Shown in pieces: positions 2-8,257 of a stretch of DNA of 51,888 bases. The stretch covers positions 1-51,888 of the forward strand of contig JAGHUH010000026.1 of the NCBI GenBank assembly GCA_018064925.1. The letters run 5' to 3'. The notes below the pieces were generated by a model that saw only the letters and a list, made by a program, of their open reading frames with translations, ran no database searches and was not told where the DNA came from. The position numbers were made by a program, and so were the translations under genes. The stretch comes from Candidatus Cacconaster stercorequi. GTDB lineage: Bacteria; Bacillota; Clostridia; Oscillospirales; Oscillospiraceae. Position 1 is the stretch's first letter. Each line of letters begins with the position of its first letter.

Positions 2-661
2 GCTGAAAAGGTAACTGCTGATGCTACTTATATCGCAACATGGGAAGTCGATGCAAATGGCAATGGCAAGGCTGACAAGGACGAAGACAAGTACACTGTC
101 ACCTACACCGACGGCGTTGACGATGAAGAAATCTTTGTCGATCAGGTTACTTCCGGTATCCTTTCCGGCACTGCCACTCCCGCTTTCGACGGTACTCCTA
201 CCCGTGAAGGCTATGTTTTCAAGGGCTGGAATCCCGCTGTGGCTGAAAAGGTAACTACCGATGCTACCTATACCGCAACTTGGGAAGCCGTTCCCGCAGC
301 AACTTATTCAGTAAGTTTCAATATGAACGGACACGGTACGCAGGTAGCGGCGCAGACTGTTGAAGAAGGCGGCAAGGCGATCAAACCCGCCGATCCGAAG
401 GAAACCGGCTACAAGTTTGACGGTTGGTACGCAGATGAAAACTTCTCTACTAAGTTCGATTTCGACACGGAAATTACCGCAAATACTACGGTTTATGCCA
501 AATGGACAAAGGACTCTGTTGCACCGACTGATCCGACCAGTCCTCAGACCGGCGATACCAGCAATGTGTTCCTGTGGATCGCTCTCCTGTTCGTCAGCTG
601 CGGCGCTCTTATTGGAACCACTGTATACGGTAAAAAAAGAAGCGGAAAGCGCTGTAAATAA
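2..661 (+). CDS. InlB-repeat surface protein with SPQTG sorting signal (5' truncated)
   Basis: Reading frame 2 is open from the first bases of the window, so only the C-terminal 219 residues are present. They hold the end of one Listeria-Bacteroides (InlB B) repeat and two further repeats, each closing with a Tyr-x-Ala-x-Trp pattern (ATYTATWEA, TTVYAKWTK). A proline/threonine linker leads to SPQTGD, a roughly 20-residue hydrophobic stretch and a basic tail (KKRSGKRCK). This is the layout of a sortase-processed, peptidoglycan-anchored protein. SPxTG is the motif type known for clostridial class B sortases, and a broken class B sortase lies about 6 kb downstream. The ligand or function of the missing ectodomain cannot be judged. 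Confidence 0.85.
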   Translation, partial: AEKVTADATYIATWEVDANGNGKADKDEDKYTVTYTDGVDDEEIFVDQVTSGILSGTATPAFDGTPTREGYVFKGWNPAVAEKVTTDATYTATWEAVPAATYSVSFNMNGHGTQVAAQTVEEGGKAIKPADPKETGYKFDGWYADENFSTKFDFDTEITANTTVYAKWTKDSVAPTDPTSPQTGDTSNVFLWIALLFVSCGALIGTTVYGKKRSGKRCK

Positions 662-674
662 TTAATTGCCAGAG

Positions 675-708
675 AGGCGGTGTGGTGAAAAACCGCACCG
701 CCTTTTCG
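675..708 (+). terminator. Rho-independent terminator after surface protein
   Basis: A 12-bp stem (AGGCGGTGTGGT / ACCGCACCGCCT, one G-U pair) with a short GAAA-type loop is followed by TTTT. It lies 14 bases after the surface protein stop codon and separates that gene from the AP2 cluster. Confidence 0.8.
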
Positions 709-860: not shown

Positions 861-1835
861 ATGGATAAGAAATTGACGGGAAAACGCTTTGATCGTTGGA
901 TCGTTCTTGACGGTTTCATAACAGCAGCAGGCGGAGAAAGGAAATGGCTCTGCAGGTGCGATTGTGGAACGGAAAGGTATGTTCTTGAGCGCAGCCTGCT
1001 TTATGGAGGCAGCAAGAGCTGTGGCTGTCTAAGAAAAGAAAAAGCGGAAAAGGCAAGGGCATACGATCTCACCGATAAGGTATTCGGAGATCTGACAGTA
1101 CTAAAAAAAGCGAGCTTTCAGAGAAAAAATGGCGGAGTATGGTGGACCTGCATCTGCACCTGCGGAAATCGATGCGATGTTTCAGCAACTCTTCTGATAA
1201 CCGGAAGAAAGACAAGCTGTGGCTGCCAAACCATAAAGAAATATGTATCTTCGGATATTTCGGGAAAAAGATTCAGAAAGCTAATTGCTTTATACCCTAC
1301 TGATAAACGATCGGCTAAAGGCTCCGTAATCTGGCATTGCAGATGCGACTGTGGTAATGAGGTGGACTTCTCCTATAACGAGCTCGTATATGGCAATCTT
1401 CAAAGCTGTGGCTGCGTGAAACGTGAGCACGATAAGAAACTGACCTCTTTTCTAAACCATGTCGAAGGAACTTCTATTGAAACCATCAAAAGCAAAAAGG
1501 TTCCATCGGACAACACGACCGGTTACCGAGGTGTTTACAACATTCATGGAAAATATCTCGCAAAAATTGTTTTTCAGAAGAAACAGTATTATCTGGGGGT
1601 ATTTGAAAACATCGAGGATGCGGTGAAGGCAAGACAGGAAGCAGAATTGGTACTGTTTGACGGCTTTGCGGATTACTTTGAGAGTTGGAAAAAATACGCG
1701 AATATGTTTCCTGACTGGGCAGTAAGCAATCCAATTAAACTTATAGTGTCGAAAGATAATAACACGCTTTCGGTTTCTATATTGCCGGAATTACCGGCTT
1801 TTTGTGAACCAGTGCTTAACAGTATAGAAGCATAA
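861..1835 (+). CDS. Cysteine-module protein with C-terminal AP2 domain (paralog 1)
   Basis: This 324-residue protein has three tandem modules of about 60 residues (roughly 4-60, 68-130, 133-192). Each starts with a (D/L)xxGKRFxxL-like segment and carries a CxCxCG knuckle and a closing SCGC (CRCDCG...SCGC, CICTCG...SCGC, CRCDCG...SCGC), a likely metal-binding unit. After a short VEGTSIETI linker comes an AP2-type domain at about 215-270 (SDNTTGYRGVY...YYLGVFENIEDAVKAR), a fold known for DNA binding in plant AP2/ERF factors and in phage and homing endonuclease proteins. No nuclease motif is visible. The ATG follows GGGAGTGAG at a rather long spacing. A sequence-specific DNA-binding role is inferred; the target is unknown. 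Confidence 0.75.
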   Translation: MDKKLTGKRFDRWIVLDGFITAAGGERKWLCRCDCGTERYVLERSLLYGGSKSCGCLRKEKAEKARAYDLTDKVFGDLTVLKKASFQRKNGGVWWTCICTCGNRCDVSATLLITGRKTSCGCQTIKKYVSSDISGKRFRKLIALYPTDKRSAKGSVIWHCRCDCGNEVDFSYNELVYGNLQSCGCVKREHDKKLTSFLNHVEGTSIETIKSKKVPSDNTTGYRGVYNIHGKYLAKIVFQKKQYYLGVFENIEDAVKARQEAELVLFDGFADYFESWKKYANMFPDWAVSNPIKLIVSKDNNTLSVSILPELPAFCEPVLNSIEA

Positions 1836-1860
1836 CTTTAGTTGAAACAGGTGGTAACTG

Positions 1861-2832
1861 ATGAGCGCAAAGTCTAAGGACTTGACTGGGATGAGGTTTG
1901 GCAATCTTGTCGTGATGGGAAAAGCAGATGGTCTTCGAAATCGGTATTATTCATGGCACTGCCGCTGTGATTGCGGCAATGGAATCATCGTAAATACCAA
2001 AAATCTGACCGCACATAGAACGACACACTGCGGCTGTAAATCTAAGGTGCTTCGAAATTCTCATCAGAAGCCTAAAGACAGGCGCGGAATGAAGTATGGT
2101 GCATTAACAGCACTTCAAATGACCGGCAAATCAAATGAAGGAGCTTTCCTTTGGGAGTGCGAATGTGAGTGCGGAAATCATATTACGGTCCCCGCAAAAC
2201 AGCTTCAGAGAAATGGAGTAAAAGACTGCGGCTGCGGTTTGGGAAATAAACCGAAATATAAGGATATTACTGGCAAAAGGAAAGGACAACTGACAGCGCT
2301 GTGTCCAACGGACAAACGGGATAGTAAAGGATCAGTCGTATGGCGCTGCCGATGTGATTGCGGAAATGAAATCGAAATGACCGAAAGTGATTTCGTGTTC
2401 GGATGTTCTGTAAGTTGCGGGTGTGTACGGCAGCAACGATGGGACGAGTTTCTTCCGGCGCAGTGGTTGACCTTTGTCGACGGAACCTGCGTGGAATGGA
2501 TCGCAAACAGAAAAAGCCGTTCTGACAATACCAGCGGTTTCAGAGGCGTTTACAAGCTCGGCGATTCTCAATTTCGGGCAGGAATAGGATTACAGGGAAA
2601 GCGATATCATCTCGGAACATATAAAACTTTCGATGAAGCTGTAGCAGTCAGACTTTCTGTAGAGGAGTTCCTTCATGATGGTTTTATTACTTGTTATGAA
2701 AAATGGCAGAAAATGGCAGCCGTGGATGAACTGTGGGCAGCCCAGAATCCGTTCTTTTTTGATGTAGAAAAAGATCAGCGCACTTTCCGAATCAAAAGTG
2801 CTGTAACGGAACAAAAAGAATATCAATACTGA
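1861..2832 (+). CDS. Cysteine-module protein with C-terminal AP2 domain (paralog 2)
   Basis: This 323-residue protein has the same plan as its upstream neighbour: three modules (CRCDCG...HCGC, CECECG...DCGC, CRCDCG...SCGC) and then an AP2 domain at about 222-275 (SDNTSGFRGVY...YHLGTYKTFDEAVAVR). It starts 25 bases after paralog 1 ends, behind AGGTGGT, so the two are probably cotranscribed. The third module and AP2 linker (FVDGTCVEWI) match paralog 1 closely while modules 1 and 2 are more diverged, which suggests old duplication rather than recent copying. DNA binding is inferred from the AP2 fold and metal binding from the cysteines; no enzymatic motif is seen. Confidence 0.75.
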   Translation: MSAKSKDLTGMRFGNLVVMGKADGLRNRYYSWHCRCDCGNGIIVNTKNLTAHRTTHCGCKSKVLRNSHQKPKDRRGMKYGALTALQMTGKSNEGAFLWECECECGNHITVPAKQLQRNGVKDCGCGLGNKPKYKDITGKRKGQLTALCPTDKRDSKGSVVWRCRCDCGNEIEMTESDFVFGCSVSCGCVRQQRWDEFLPAQWLTFVDGTCVEWIANRKSRSDNTSGFRGVYKLGDSQFRAGIGLQGKRYHLGTYKTFDEAVAVRLSVEEFLHDGFITCYEKWQKMAAVDELWAAQNPFFFDVEKDQRTFRIKSAVTEQKEYQY

Positions 2833-2834
2833 TC

Positions 2835-3011
2835 GGACAAAGGAAAACGACGACGGATTTTGGTTTTGAGTTCAGCTTTGAATACATAGATAAGCAGATT
2901 GTTCTGTTCTTCTGGGCAGACCTTCCCTGGTTGTTTATGCCTCCTATCAAAAAGCCAAGATATAAAAATAAAGCAACGCTTCCTGAAATCATGCGTGAGT
3001 GTACCTTATGA
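2835..3011 (+). pseudogene. Orphan C-terminal coding remnant, unidentified
   Basis: Frame 0 is open from 2763 and from about 2835 reads like real protein (aromatic-rich FGFEFSFEYIDKQ, FFWADLPWLFMPPIKK, then NKATLPEIMRECTL). It stops at TGA 3009-3011. The frame has no ATG, GTG or TTG before about 2937, so it cannot be an intact gene of this length. Its stop overlaps the ATG at 3008 in the classic ATGA manner, as if it were once the upstream partner in an operon. I read it as the 3' end of a truncated gene. The product is not recognised, and it could be chance coding potential. Confidence 0.4.
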
Positions 3012-4624
3012 GAATATCACTAAAAGAATACTGTGAAGAGCAAGGCCGTGAGGATCTGCTGAACCAATGGGACGTAGAAGCCAATCTTCCCTTAACCCCG
3101 GAAACTGTAACAAGGGGCTCCAGCAGAAGTATCTGGTGGATATGTGATAAAGGACACACCTGGAAGGCAGCTCCGTATGCAAGAACTGCAAACAGGACGG
3201 GTTGTCCGGTCTGTGTTGGCAAGAAAGTTGTGCCGTTAGAAAACGATCTTGCAACGCGCTGCCCCGAGGTGGCATCGGAATGGAACGATTCAAAGAATGG
3301 CGATTTGCGGCCTGAAACGGTATCCCCTAATTCTCATCGCAAGGTATGGTGGGAATGCAGGAAATGTGGCTATGAATGGGTCGCTGAAATAAAGTCACGT
3401 GCCGGTATCAACAAGAGCGGATGTCCGTGCTGTGCCGATAAAACTGTTGTCCCGGGAACGAATGATCTCGCGACAAAATATCCCCTATTAGTATCTGAAT
3501 GGCACCCTTCAAAAAATGAGACATTAAAGCCGTGTGATGTGCTGCCCGGAACTGACAAAAAAGTATGGTGGCAGTGCAAACACGGGCACGAATGGCAGAC
3601 AGAGATCAGTTCCAGAGCGCGTGGAGCGGGCTGCCCTGTCTGCGCCGGTCGTGCTGTGGTTCCCGGAGAAAACGATTTAGGCAGCGCAAAGCCACAGATC
3701 GCAACTGAATGGCATCCTACAAAGAATGGCCTTCTGCGTCCGGAAAATGTCACTGTGTATTCCAACAGGAAAGCATGGTGGATATGCAAAGAAGGACACG
3801 AGTATGCCGCTGTCATTTCACGCAGAGTATCGGGAAGTGGCTGCCCTTATTGCGCGAACCGGAAGGTGCTGACCGGGTATAACGATCTGGCAGCGAAATA
3901 TCCTGATATTTCCAAAGAATGGCATCCTACAAAAAATGATATCCTGCCTCAAGATGTGATTCCGGGGAGCAGAAAAAGAGTGTGGTGGATTTGTCAGCAA
4001 GGGCACGAATATGAAGCTTCGATTCAATCAAGAACCAGTCAGTATACAGGATGTCCGATTTGTGCAAACAGAATCATCATTCCTGAAGAGAACAGTCTTG
4101 CAGCTCTGTTTCCACAAATTGCTGCAGAGTGGAATTATGAAAGAAACGGCGACCTTTTGCCCGAAAATCTCAGCGCAGGAAATAACCGCACGGTATGGTG
4201 GCGCTGTAGTTTGGGCCATGAGTGGCAGGCTGCCATAAATACGCGTACCTCAAAAAATAGCGGCTGTCCAGTCTGCATGAACCGAAAGGTGCTACCGGGA
4301 TTCAATGATCTCGCTACGACGCATCCCCAAATAGCGGCACAATGGCATCCAACCCTGAACGGCAAATATACTCCGCAGATGTTCACGTACGGCAGCATGA
4401 GAAAAGTATGGTGGATATGTGCAGACGGCCATGTTTGGAAGGCACCGATCAGCAGACGCGCAGGAACACAAAAGTCTGGGTGCCCTGTTTGCAATGGCAG
4501 AATGCGCAAGAGCCAACAAAGATATTTGGAAAATGTTCTCCTTAACATACAGAACGAAACGAAAACTGTTGAGGCGAAACCATTGAAGAGCGAGGGTGGG
4601 CAATTACGGAAAAAATCTATGTGA
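3008..4624 (+). CDS. Seven-repeat zinc-ribbon (DUF4379-like) protein
   Basis: This protein of about 538 residues consists almost entirely of seven repeats of about 68 residues. Each has an NDLAxxxPxxAxEWHPxxN start, a TPExVxxGSxxKVWW core, a C-x(2-3)-GHxW/Y hairpin, and a closing SGCPxC pair, giving four potential zinc ligands per repeat. This matches the DUF4379 probable zinc-ribbon family. Family members often carry a VSR/restriction-like nuclease, but none is present here; the tail after repeat 7 is only about 45 basic residues. ATG 3008 is preferred over the upstream start at 2999 because it makes an ATGA overlap with the preceding frame. Lying between AP2 proteins, it is probably a nucleic-acid-binding partner of theirs (inference). 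Confidence 0.8.
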   Translation: MRISLKEYCEEQGREDLLNQWDVEANLPLTPETVTRGSSRSIWWICDKGHTWKAAPYARTANRTGCPVCVGKKVVPLENDLATRCPEVASEWNDSKNGDLRPETVSPNSHRKVWWECRKCGYEWVAEIKSRAGINKSGCPCCADKTVVPGTNDLATKYPLLVSEWHPSKNETLKPCDVLPGTDKKVWWQCKHGHEWQTEISSRARGAGCPVCAGRAVVPGENDLGSAKPQIATEWHPTKNGLLRPENVTVYSNRKAWWICKEGHEYAAVISRRVSGSGCPYCANRKVLTGYNDLAAKYPDISKEWHPTKNDILPQDVIPGSRKRVWWICQQGHEYEASIQSRTSQYTGCPICANRIIIPEENSLAALFPQIAAEWNYERNGDLLPENLSAGNNRTVWWRCSLGHEWQAAINTRTSKNSGCPVCMNRKVLPGFNDLATTHPQIAAQWHPTLNGKYTPQMFTYGSMRKVWWICADGHVWKAPISRRAGTQKSGCPVCNGRMRKSQQRYLENVLLNIQNETKTVEAKPLKSEGGQLRKKSM

Positions 4625-4920
4625 TACATGATATCTGCGTTGCATGCGGAAAGAGAATCTCAGAGGGTGAAATGCTTTGCACGGATTGTAAAAATCTTTT
4701 TAATACCTCTGAAAAAAATAACCACGAACACGAAGAGCAACTACCAGGTTTAATTCAGGGTATCTGCATTTCATGTGGAAAGAGAATCCCATGGGATGAA
4801 AGGCTCTGTACGGATTGCAAAAAACCTATAGTGGCAGCGTCATCACAAAGAAAACGAAGAATAAGAGGCAGATATCAGCAATTATTCGGATTAGCCAAGA
4901 AAAATGACTACAAAGCTTGA
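4621..4920 (+). CDS. Small double zinc-ribbon protein
   Basis: This 99-residue protein starts at GTG 4621, overlapping the stop of the zinc-ribbon repeat protein (GTGA), so translation is likely coupled. It contains two near-identical CxxC...CxxC ribbons, ICVACGKRISEGEMLCTDC and ICISCGKRIPWDERLCTDC, separated by a charged linker rich in Glu and His and followed by a basic tail (SSQRKRRIRGRYQQ). The pattern resembles generic zinc-ribbon domains found at the ends of regulatory and membrane proteins, but here it is free-standing. No function can be assigned beyond probable zinc binding and nucleic-acid or protein contact. Confidence 0.6.
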   Translation: MIHDICVACGKRISEGEMLCTDCKNLFNTSEKNNHEHEEQLPGLIQGICISCGKRIPWDERLCTDCKKPIVAASSQRKRRIRGRYQQLFGLAKKNDYKA

Positions 4921-5353
4921 TTTAACAGGTCAGCCATTTGGACACCTTACCGCTATCTCACCAGCTGAAAATGTAAAGGGCAGGACAGCTTGGCTTTGCA
5001 GATGTACATGCGGCAATGAATGTGTCGTTACTACCAAAGACCTGCGAAGCGGCAAACGGGCTACCTGTGGGTGCAGAAGTCCCGGCTTGGAATCGCTCCA
5101 TTATATTGATGGTACATGTATTGAAATGATTCGAAGCAAGTCGGTGCGGTCGAATAATAAAAGTGGAGTCCCGGGAGTCTTCTATGACAAAAGCAAAGAT
5201 AAATGGAGAGCCGAGATCATGTTTCAAGGAAAGCGAATATGCCTTGTAAGGTTTGTCAATTTTCAAGACGCCGTTAAGACTCGGATAAGAGAAGAAGAAA
5301 GACTGCATGACGATTTTGTTGCTGCCTTTATGGAGAAAGATGAAAAGATGTAA
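4904..5353 (+). CDS. Short cysteine-module/AP2 protein (paralog 3)
   Basis: This 149-residue short form has one cysteine module (LDLTGQPFGHLTAIS...CRCTCG...TCGC, residues 4-62) and one AP2 domain (about 80-130: SNNKSGVPGVFYDKSK...ICLVRFVNFQDAVKTR). In the AP2 core the usual GYRGVY is GVPGVF. The linker YIDGTCIEMIRSK matches the linkers of the longer paralogs. It starts 17 bases inside the preceding zinc-ribbon gene and has only a weak ribosome-binding site, so it is probably translated by coupling. It shows that the module count in this family is variable. Confidence 0.7.
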   Translation: MTTKLDLTGQPFGHLTAISPAENVKGRTAWLCRCTCGNECVVTTKDLRSGKRATCGCRSPGLESLHYIDGTCIEMIRSKSVRSNNKSGVPGVFYDKSKDKWRAEIMFQGKRICLVRFVNFQDAVKTRIREEERLHDDFVAAFMEKDEKM

Positions 5354-5456
5354 GAAAACCCGAAAGTGGAATAACTGAGTGGAAAACAAAAAGAGTATTA
5401 GCGTTCACTTGGTACTCTCCTCTTACCATTCAAATATGTAAGGGAGAAATATTGGA

Positions 5457-6305
5457 ATGAAAGATAAACGACCCAAGATTGAGATTGGCTACCGCATAGG
5501 CCTATTGACCGTAGCAGAGCCAACTTCAAAAAGAAAAAACGGCTATACAGTTTGGAAGTGTCAATGTGACTGCGGCGGTGAGATCGAACTGGATACACGA
5601 TATCTGCAGAGAGGAACTGTAACAGACTGCGGATGCAAAACAATTGTCAAGCCGGGTCAAAAAGATGTGTCCGGTCAGCGCTTTGGAAAGCTTACCGCCC
5701 TCTATCCGCTTCCTGAACATGGTTTTGGAAAAACGATTTGGCATTGCAGATGCGATTGCGGAAACGAAATAGACGCTCCTCTTCATCAACTGACAGCTGG
5801 ATACCGAAAAAGCTGCGGCTGTATACGATATACCACGCCGACAGGTGAAATAATACTGAAGGATTTTATCGGAAAAAGATTCGGAAAGCTGACGGTCACG
5901 GAATACGCAGGAAAACGTGCGGGAATGCATCGATGGCAATGTATTTGTGATTGTGGGAACGAAACCATCGTGGGTCAAACACTTCTTCAAAACGGAAAGA
6001 CAAAGAGCTGCGGGTGTCTCCAGCAGACGCAGATCCTTAAAAACATGAAGTTTGTTGACGGTACGTCTGTTACCGCAATAGAAGCCAGAATGAAGCGCCC
6101 TCCTATTGCCACAAATACCAGCGGTTACAACGGTGTATACCATAGCAGCAGAGGTAGATGGAGGGCTCAAATTGGCTTCAAAGGAAAAACGTATTATCTT
6201 GGAAGCTTTGACAGCATACAGGAAGCTATAGATGCCCGGAAGGAAGGAGAAAAAATGTATGAGAATTTTCTCGAGTGGTATTATTCGAGAAAGTTAGTAG
6301 ACTGA
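5457..6305 (+). CDS. Cysteine-module protein with C-terminal AP2 domain (paralog 4)
   Basis: This 282-residue protein carries three cysteine modules (CQCDCG...DCGC, CRCDCG...SCGC, CICDCG...SCGC) and a C-terminal AP2 domain at about 220-275 (ATNTSGYNGVYHSSRGRWRAQI, YYLGSFDSIQEAIDAR). Its third module lacks any extra linker before the AP2 part. The DNA around its second module resembles the third module of paralog 1 at 1333-1365. A roughly 100-base spacer without an obvious terminator separates it from paralog 3. A DNA-binding regulator or an orphan domain from a mobile element are both possible; no catalytic residues are visible. Confidence 0.75.
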   Translation: MKDKRPKIEIGYRIGLLTVAEPTSKRKNGYTVWKCQCDCGGEIELDTRYLQRGTVTDCGCKTIVKPGQKDVSGQRFGKLTALYPLPEHGFGKTIWHCRCDCGNEIDAPLHQLTAGYRKSCGCIRYTTPTGEIILKDFIGKRFGKLTVTEYAGKRAGMHRWQCICDCGNETIVGQTLLQNGKTKSCGCLQQTQILKNMKFVDGTSVTAIEARMKRPPIATNTSGYNGVYHSSRGRWRAQIGFKGKTYYLGSFDSIQEAIDARKEGEKMYENFLEWYYSRKLVD

Positions 6306-6424: not shown

Positions 6425-7251
6425 ATGGCGGAAAGTCAAGATCCCCGCAAACGAGTAATAAAAACTATACTGGTCATTTTTTGCTGCTTGTAATTGCGTT
6501 TTGCGCCTGGAAAATATGGTCGATTCCATCTGAATATAAGAAAGGAAACGATACATACGAAGAGGCGGCATCTTTTGTCAGTATTCCGGATAAAGGAGAA
6601 CTTGTTTCGGAAGAATTTCTTCCCGAGATGATCCCAAATCCTCCTTCTGATTCTGACGATGATCCTGCCATTGAACTTGCTGAAGAGGACGAAATAGATT
6701 GGCCGGTTGTGGATTTTAATGCGCTGCGGGAAATCAATCCTGATATTGTCGGGTGGATATACATCGAAGATACAAATATAAATTACCCGATAGCGCAGGG
6801 CCCGGATAACAGCTATTATTTGAGCCGCATGTATAACAAGCAATGGGATGGATGTGGCTGCATCTTTATGGACTATTTGAACAGCCCGGATTTCTCTGAT
6901 TCCAATTCTGTGATATATGGTCATCACATGAAAAATGGAAGCATGTTTCATGATCTGGATGGATATAAGGGACAGGAGTTTTACGAAACGCATAAGACAG
7001 CCTATCTCCTGACACCGGATAAAAATTACCAAATCATTCTTTTCGCGGGTTATGTCGCAAGTTTGAAAGACGATGCCTAGAAAGTGGATTTTTCCGAAGA
7101 AGAGTTTGAACCATGGTATATGAAAGCAATAGGACGGTCATGTTTTGACAGCGGCATTGTTCCAACTCCGCAGAGTAGAATAATAACGATATCAACCTGC
7201 AGTTATGAGTTTAATAATGCCAGATTTGTTGTATTAGGAATACTGAAATAA
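6425..7251 (+). pseudogene. srtB: Class B sortase, broken by frameshift and amber codon
   Basis: Conceptual repair gives a full class B sortase of about 275 residues. It has an N-terminal membrane anchor and a core with DIVGWIYI, NYPIAQ and SVIYGHHM (catalytic His), then ITISTCSYEF (catalytic Cys) and ARFVVLG (catalytic Arg). Two lesions interrupt it. The ATG at 6425 reads MAESQDPRKRVIKTILVIF and then shifts at a run of six T (6477-6482); a seventh T would restore the frame. An in-frame TAG at 7078-7080 stands where DDA-W-KVDF would be expected (TGG to TAG). The C-terminal part with Cys and Arg lies after the stop. It is likely the former partner of the SPQTG surface protein at the window start. 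Confidence 0.8.
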
Positions 7252-7844: not shown

Positions 7845-7884
7845 TGAGGCCCGACAGGTATAAGCCTGCAGGCCTCTCTTTTTT
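7845..7884. terminator. Bidirectional terminator
   Basis: A stem GAGGCC...GGCCTC with an inner CAGGTATAAGCCTG hairpin is followed by TCTTTTTT on the plus strand and by T residues on the minus strand as well. It lies between the convergent small membrane protein gene and the tnpV gene and can serve both. Confidence 0.7.
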
Positions 7885-8257
7885 ATCTGTATATAAGTTC
7901 GTTATTAACGATCTCTGCTGCCAAATTATGGACTGAGTTCATCCGCTGGACCCATAGCATCTGGTTTTCTGCTTTGAGCGTTTCTGAAATGCCGCCCCTC
8001 TCGGCAAGCTGCTTTACTAACCGGGAATACATTTCATCTGCCTGCCTGCCCAAATCAGCAAGATAATCGAGCAGATCTCCGCTCATTTGCAATTCCAGGA
8101 AAATATCTCTCCGATATTGTTTCAGATACTGCAGGTGACGGTGCCCCAATACCCCGATTGAAGGTGGTTCTGGTTCGTCATCACCGGCAATGAGGTAGTA
8201 ATCCCCGACAAGCTCGTATTTAAGCCCGGTACGTTCATCAGTGATGTACTTTTCCAT
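7883..8257 (-). CDS. tnpV: TnpV family transposon-associated protein
   Basis: This 124-residue protein opens MEKYITDERTGLKYELVGDYY and ends with AENQMLWVQRMNSV...AAEIVNNELIY, the signature ends of TnpV, a small protein carried by Tn4451-like and other clostridial transposons and integrative elements. Its biochemical role is not established. It starts one base inside the preceding small gene (TAATG overlap), so the two form a coupled pair. No recombinase is next to it, so this is either a remnant or a domesticated copy. Confidence 0.85.
   Translation of the reverse strand: MEKYITDERTGLKYELVGDYYLIAGDDEPEPPSIGVLGHRHLQYLKQYRRDIFLELQMSGDLLDYLADLGRQADEMYSRLVKQLAERGGISETLKAENQMLWVQRMNSVHNLAAEIVNNELIYR

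Follow-up and report, generated by a model that had tools for sequence, protein, structure and literature searches.

Phase variation of surface structures shapes gut bacterial colonisation and the encounter with the host, and UpxY proteins, which are relatives of NusG, are among the genes behind such switches in Bacteroidota. The main text of PMC11892184 describes these antiterminators as regulatable genes located near invertons in Bacteroidota, and also inverton group 139, which comes with tyrosine invertase group 35 and of which 32 of 33 invertons are from Clostridia. In Clostridioides difficile, CwpV is a phase-variable large cell wall protein (PMC2784873), and the recombinase RecV acts in the flagellar switch (PMC8890394). 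A dedicated regulator behind clostridial surface switches is not named in the papers listed by searches of Creative Commons-licensed PubMed Central text; among these, titles and abstract openings link AP2 to neither sortases, LPXTG proteins, pili nor phase variation, and the DUF4379 papers are, by their listing, on other subjects. The term AP2 does not occur in the main text of PMC11892184. Here, we analyzed the window, i.e., the whole of contig C17 (51,888 bases; JAGHUH010000026.1) of Candidatus Cacconaster stercorequi, whose genome comprises 1.83 Mb in 46 contigs. At positions 861 to 6,305 it carries six co-directional genes for arrays of cysteine (Cys) modules with an AP2 domain, a DUF4379 array and a double zinc ribbon, flanked by the genes of an LPxTG surface protein on one side and of a class B sortase on the other.

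By its predicted domains, the cluster belongs to two nuclease-less array families, Cys-module/AP2 and a DUF4379 type denoted type B, which are related to the parts of phage homing endonucleases that bind DNA. From their position, we infer with a probability slightly above one half that such arrays regulate phase-variable surface operons of gut Clostridia in a locus-specific manner. The main result is the invertible-promoter context of the array genes, which goes beyond an earlier sequence-only reading of this DNA. The window cluster itself would lie in a switchable operon, judging from a sister cluster on contig C23 of the same genome and from its relatives elsewhere.

Results

Recombinases and Inverted Repeats at AP2-Array Loci

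A single-protein search gave a match in 17 of 149 relatives and a profile search in 35 of 393 genomes of the class, the own genome and single-module matches being counted in both, and a scan of the collection confirmed at least 561 relatives. The locus set of 95 comprises the best 80 of these at least 561, the window and its sister cluster, together with 13 of the 20 neighbourhoods that were fetched; the other seven (L056, L061, L063–L066, L070) were dropped by eye as nuclease-fused, phage-type or fragments, and a Pfam scan covered L056, L061, L064 and L070. The 80 loci are the most similar ones and are not independent, with several derived from one genome (three from isolate U.6_8, four from AH.13_1). 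The surface, repeat and promoter assignments used throughout are heuristics made for this analysis.

Of 81 loci, 24 had a recombinase (15 tyrosine, 9 serine) no more than two genes upstream of the array gene, and tyrosine recombinases accounted for 11 of 81 genes at position −1 versus 2 of 217 at 6–8 genes away. Integrase and resolvase each had fewer than two members among distant control genes (n = 90), for which 25 of 127 families are listed; single control hits could thus be hidden, and a Fisher test of 16/75 versus 0/90 for recombinase families was therefore not used. Inverted repeats with at least 14 matches were found upstream of the array gene in 10 of 80 cases versus 5 of 325 controls (P = 7e-5). 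Perfect repeat pairs of 18–24 bp occur in L053, L079, L080, L091, L099 and L145, and those of L053 (24 bp), L079 (20 bp), L099 (21 bp) and L145 (18 bp) are placed between the recombinase and the array gene, partly overlapping their ends. Since inverted repeats lie beside some of them, the upstream recombinases look like promoter invertases.

Type-B DUF4379 Arrays and Their Spacers

Within the order, 49 of 245 genomes contained PF14311 (DUF4379). Nineteen DUF4379 regions were fetched and then 8 more, the second batch being picked by the length of the open reading frame (ORF) after the first had been seen; of these 27, L240 and L254 gave no called array and were dropped. Type B was defined in this analysis by the N-terminal motif of the window protein, SLKEYCEEQGREDLLNQWD, which is common to inverton-linked DUF4379 arrays; L249 narrowly fails and was counted as non-B. 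A tyrosine recombinase lies upstream of 9 of 11 type-B genes versus 1 of 16 others (P = 1e-4), a comparison that was not blind, in which a 79-residue ORF on the opposite strand between recombinase and array was passed over for L248, and L247, with a 122-residue ORF between them, was taken as a miss. All 5 type-B genes of the first batch had such a recombinase upstream.

Eight DUF4379 loci (L237, L244, L246–L249, L252, L256), i.e., six type-B genes plus L247 and L249, contain perfect 15–22 bp repeats that enclose a 223–270 bp spacer and are in seven cases close to GACARAATC..GATTYTGTC, of which L246 has a variant. A protein of 1,093–2,655 residues is encoded at most three genes downstream in 6 of the 11 type-B loci (L237, L244, L246, L248, L252, L256), with a secretion signal called in four of the six; a sortase precedes it in L248, and a large protein is also found in L249. 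Nine long DUF4379 proteins (554–732 residues) from the same order showed neither a tyrosine recombinase within three genes nor a listed repeat. The window DUF4379 protein shares 44–54% identity with the 11 type-B arrays and 34–48% with the nine long ones, and its best-scoring match is a non-B array of 516 residues (L233, 46%).

A promoter-like site was accepted at a shuffle p of 0.05 or below, using weights set by hand from the consensus. Such a site passed in 14 of 17 spacers, directed toward the downstream gene in 4 and away from it in 10; this set includes the L143 spacer, which precedes a peptide operon, and the L181 spacer, which precedes a TetR gene, and L080, in which both strands passed, was assigned to the toward group after the stronger of the two. 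Across the eight DUF4379 spacers the site is similarly placed near one end; it faces the gene in L249 and L256, points away from it in L237, L244 and L246–L248, and is weak in L252. The anatomy of an invertible promoter, in which repeats surround a promoter-like site with a recombinase nearby, was found in part of the related loci. The opposite promoter directions would look like those expected of related switches caught in opposite states, provided that the segments flip.

Surface Genes around the Arrays

In 47 of the 95 loci, a surface hallmark lies at most two genes from the array gene; sortases, signal peptidases, and anchored or giant secreted proteins were counted as hallmarks. Hallmark genes made up 67 of 320 near genes versus 15 of 276 distant ones (at least 6 genes away; Fisher P = 2e-8), and 27 sortases were detected with a local model in 1.21 Mb of loci versus 129, by Pfam, across 37 genomes that carry arrays or modules (about 91 Mb in total). 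The direct upstream neighbours (n = 75, Pfam) included integrase (9), resolvase (7), sortase (7), SpaA (4) and FctA (3), the downstream ones (n = 82) BTAD (6), S26 (5), sortase (4) and a CpsB capsule gene (1), and the distant genes (n = 90) sortase (3).

Further neighbours were noted at individual loci. A CpsB capsule gene was recognized by reading at L079, and in L097, L085, L091 and L081 the AP2 array is directly followed by a gene for a BTAD/SARP-like regulator. In another Clostridia genome, sortase genes are followed by an AP2 array and then a type-B DUF4379 array, as in the window (L108:3827-4735). By reading, peptide-modification operons appear to be other homes of the arrays (L124, L140, L141, L143, L148), and for L143 Pfam bears out both radical SAM and PqqD. 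A serine recombinase is located upstream of a radical-SAM/PqqD peptide operon ending in an AP2 array gene in L143, L141 and L148, and a perfect 20-bp repeat pair precedes the operon at L143:3396-3560; these operons possibly make a phase-variable peptide product.

The Window Cluster and Its Sister on Contig C23

All window features described here are on the forward strand unless noted. The contig starts inside an LPxTG-type surface gene, whose 5' part lies off the contig and whose 3' part (2..661) encodes a Listeria-Bacteroides repeat (PF09479, 1.9e-20) and a sub-threshold LPxTG anchor. Between this gene and the cluster, an intrinsic-terminator-like hairpin, GGCGGTGTGG..CCGCACCGCC-TTTT, can be read at 676..706. 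The first two cluster genes encode proteins of 324 residues (861..1835) and 323 residues (1861..2832), each composed of three Cys-modules and an AP2 domain. Their paralogs on C23 are 71% identical, with a ratio of nonsynonymous to synonymous substitution rates (dN/dS) of 0.10, and 74% identical over 191 residues, respectively, the latter being cut short and devoid of AP2. The seven-module DUF4379 array follows at 2999..4624, starting from GTG at 2999 or ATG at 3008, and is a clear member of its family, scoring 449 bits over seven stretches against a curated cut-off of 24.5 (PF14311, 8.6e-138). Next is a 99-residue double zinc-ribbon protein (4621..4920; PF09889 and PF18912 above cut-off), whose gene shares 4 nt with the preceding one and 17 nt with the one that follows. 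The remaining two are a 149-residue protein with one Cys-module and AP2 (4904..5353) and a 282-residue protein with three modules and AP2 (5457..6305). The class B sortase (6481..7080; TIGR03064, 4.4e-45) has an in-frame TAG at 7078-7080, after which the reading frame still encodes sortase-like sequence up to about 7251. Shortly after the sortase, the reverse strand (7883-8257) encodes a TnpV transposon protein (PF14198, 2.8e-32), so that the surface locus adjoins mobile-element sequence.

The sequence-only reading had described four Cys-module/AP2 paralogs with two zinc-ribbon partners, which was borne out as 3, 3, 1 and 3 modules with AP2, a DUF4379 array and a double zinc ribbon. It had also seen no nuclease, in agreement with the Pfam and NCBIfam scans, in which none of the six proteins had an HNH or other nuclease domain. 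For its proposal of a multi-component DNA-recognition system, no sign was found here that the six proteins work jointly, and a single machine was rejected because all but four of the 95 loci (the window, L023, L106, L110) have one called array gene.

On C23, where the array genes close a pilus operon, the co-directional order is a tyrosine recombinase (281 residues), perfect 19-bp repeats (283 bp across), a TetR regulator, a giant surface protein, a signal peptidase, a pilin, sortase B, a PKTGD pilin and three array genes, the last of them cut short. Short matches to the C23 switch element were detected at C29:131330-131384 (L250, C29:124000-132354), near secreted proteins that read as TasA/camelysin-like, and are possibly a second target of the C23 recombinase. 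Contig C5 contains two more pilus-like operons with sortases (L182, L183), one of them with a signal peptidase, in which no array gene was called.

Module, Fold and Kinship to Homing Endonucleases

Conserved alignment columns give the Cys-module consensus D-L-T-G-x-R-F-G-x-L-T-V ... W-x-C-x-C-x-C-G ... C-G-C, for which scans of the cluster proteins detected no Pfam or NCBIfam model above its cut-off. No Cys-module ORF arose in 100 trials with shuffled sequence. Two phage families named HNH endonuclease, PHROG_374 and PHROG_99, match the cluster proteins through module and AP2 positions, PHROG_374 matching the Cys-module, and related proteins occur in 220 phage records, all below 60% identity. 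The same module stands together with a GIY-YIG nuclease, confirmed by Pfam, and NUMOD1 in L061; HNH-like or Vsr-like C-termini beside the module elsewhere come from reading the sequence alone, with no Pfam hit for L056, L064 and L070.

A structural model of the 5457..6305 protein from a 66-sequence alignment reached a mean predicted local distance difference test (pLDDT) score of 92.7 and a predicted template modeling (pTM) score of 0.55. It consists of three beta modules followed by a C-terminal AP2 fold, whose three-stranded sheet and helix match the solved plant AP2 domains, consistent with its membership in that family. The dN/dS was 0.05–0.23 in the 7 of 10 gene pairs with measurable dS, values that are rough as dS exceeded 1 in four of the seven, and dS was saturated in the other three pairs. 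By these estimates, the nuclease-less arrays are under purifying selection.

Discussion

The fullest order seen consists of a recombinase, a promoter segment between inverted repeats, an array gene and, after it, genes for a pilus, a giant surface protein or a capsule; elsewhere, as in the C23 cluster, the array genes stand at the operon end. The segment would flip and thereby switch on the surface genes jointly with the array gene; the array protein may then bind a site in its own locus and control expression as an activator, an antiterminator or a repressor of rival loci, much as is thought for UpxY in Bacteroidota. The slot behind the repeats holds AP2 arrays, DUF4379 arrays or, on C23, TetR, and AP2 arrays are found beside both recombinase classes, both of which favour control of the operon over control of inversion. 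A regulator array for the surface-protein locus was one option of the sequence-only reading; it fits through the recurrence beside pilus, sortase and surface genes, with the regulatory function deduced from this position. Its other option, a domesticated mobile-element family, is also compatible, as the modules are common to homing-nuclease families. Homologs that occur singly and always beside recombinases had been named in that reading as speaking against an undescribed system. This is half borne out: many do occur singly, and 24 of 81 loci have the upstream recombinase given above, but these recombinases look like promoter invertases.

A more ambitious version of the regulator reading, which we put forward tentatively and as less probable than the reading itself, is that gut Clostridia recruited homing-endonuclease module arrays twice, as Cys-module/AP2 and as type-B DUF4379, to be locus-specific master regulators of invertible-promoter surface operons, forming a clostridial counterpart of UpxY. 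The number of modules might then serve as a DNA address, and several arrays per genome, as in the window, might decide the surface coat.

Several observations weigh against regulation of switchable surface operons. No DNA or RNA target was found for the arrays. The window contig contains no tyrosine recombinase, the genes called in the first 16 kb include no serine recombinase, and a search for perfect repeat pairs of at least 15 bp gave none, the upstream side lying off the contig. The hairpin at 676-706 stands between the surface gene and the first array gene, which makes their co-transcription doubtful. On C23, it is the TetR gene that follows the repeats, with a promoter signal that is weak in either direction (toward, p = 0.06; away, p = 0.14). 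Neither surface hallmark, recombinase nor repeat was found in 28 of the 95 loci, some of which are short contigs and four of which (L140, L141, L143, L148) resemble peptide-modification operons. Masked spacer alignments gave an orientation preference in only 5 of 28 pairs and none in 23, and a minus-strand match of the L249 and L247 spacers was dropped because it lies in a self-complementary stretch (masked z = 1.8 both ways). The five oriented pairs all agree with the promoter directions, L246-L247, L246-L248 and L249-L256 preferring the same orientation and L237-L249 and L248-L249 the opposite one, the latter two being weak (z = 2.7-2.8); the L248-L256 pair leans against the promoter reading (z = 2.3).

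The strongest competitor, which we regard as unlikely, holds that the arrays are selfish remnants: homing endonucleases would have lost their nuclease, and the DNA-binding half left over would persist in hypervariable surface loci because these are hot spots of gene exchange. The matches of module and AP2 to the PHROG HNH-endonuclease families and phage proteins, the GIY-YIG/NUMOD1 neighbour of the module in L061, the patchy distribution (17/149 and 35/393) and the truncated C23 paralog all suit such an origin, whereas purifying selection in the seven measurable pairs, the recurrence of the type-B DUF4379 slot behind recombinase and inverted repeats, and the sharing of that slot by two unrelated array families speak against it. 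A role as recombination accessory factors, in which arrays bound near the inverted repeats would govern how often or in which direction the neighbouring invertase acts, is improbable: the AP2 arrays occur with both tyrosine and serine recombinases, which use different helpers, and in 57 of 81 AP2 loci neither of the two nearest upstream genes is a recombinase. Finally, that they are ordinary small zinc-finger regulators of unrelated neighbours, linked to surface genes by the sampling of surface-locus-rich gut Clostridia, agrees with the 28 loci without any hallmark but is the least probable reading in view of the within-locus control (67/320 near versus 15/276 far), the repeat counts (10/80 versus 5/325) and the nine long DUF4379 arrays of the same order that lack such recombinases and repeats.

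The occurrence of array genes beside apparently switchable surface genes suggests a little-noticed class of dedicated regulators. If locus-specific regulation is true, the arrays fill in Clostridia the place held by UpxY in Bacteroidota, module and slot together give a sequence handle for finding phase-variable operons in uncultured Clostridia, and the arrays add another case in which DNA binders of selfish elements became regulators.

Among the described systems, the HNH-AP2 homing endonucleases of phages (IPA-HNH; PMC10448857) share the AP2 DNA-binding domain with the cluster proteins, which in contrast have no nuclease domain found, are chromosomal, are under purifying selection by our estimates and are often near surface genes. 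A precedent for a homing-endonuclease DNA-binding part turned into a transcription regulator is CapR, a repressor that evolved from T5orf172 homing-endonuclease DNA-binding domains (PMC10448857); it differs in its domain family and phage-satellite setting, and regulation by the Cys-module/AP2 arrays would be a parallel case. The CwpV switch resembles the array loci in involving a phase-variable large cell wall protein in a clostridial relative, with no array gene named in the opening of the abstract (PMC2784873). Inverton group 139 is likewise clostridial with a tyrosine recombinase near, and its flipping was measured by reads (PMC11892184). The genes of UpxY, like the array genes, lie where an invertible promoter could drive them, next to genes for surface products (PMC11892184), the arrays differing in being built from zinc modules and in belonging to Clostridia.

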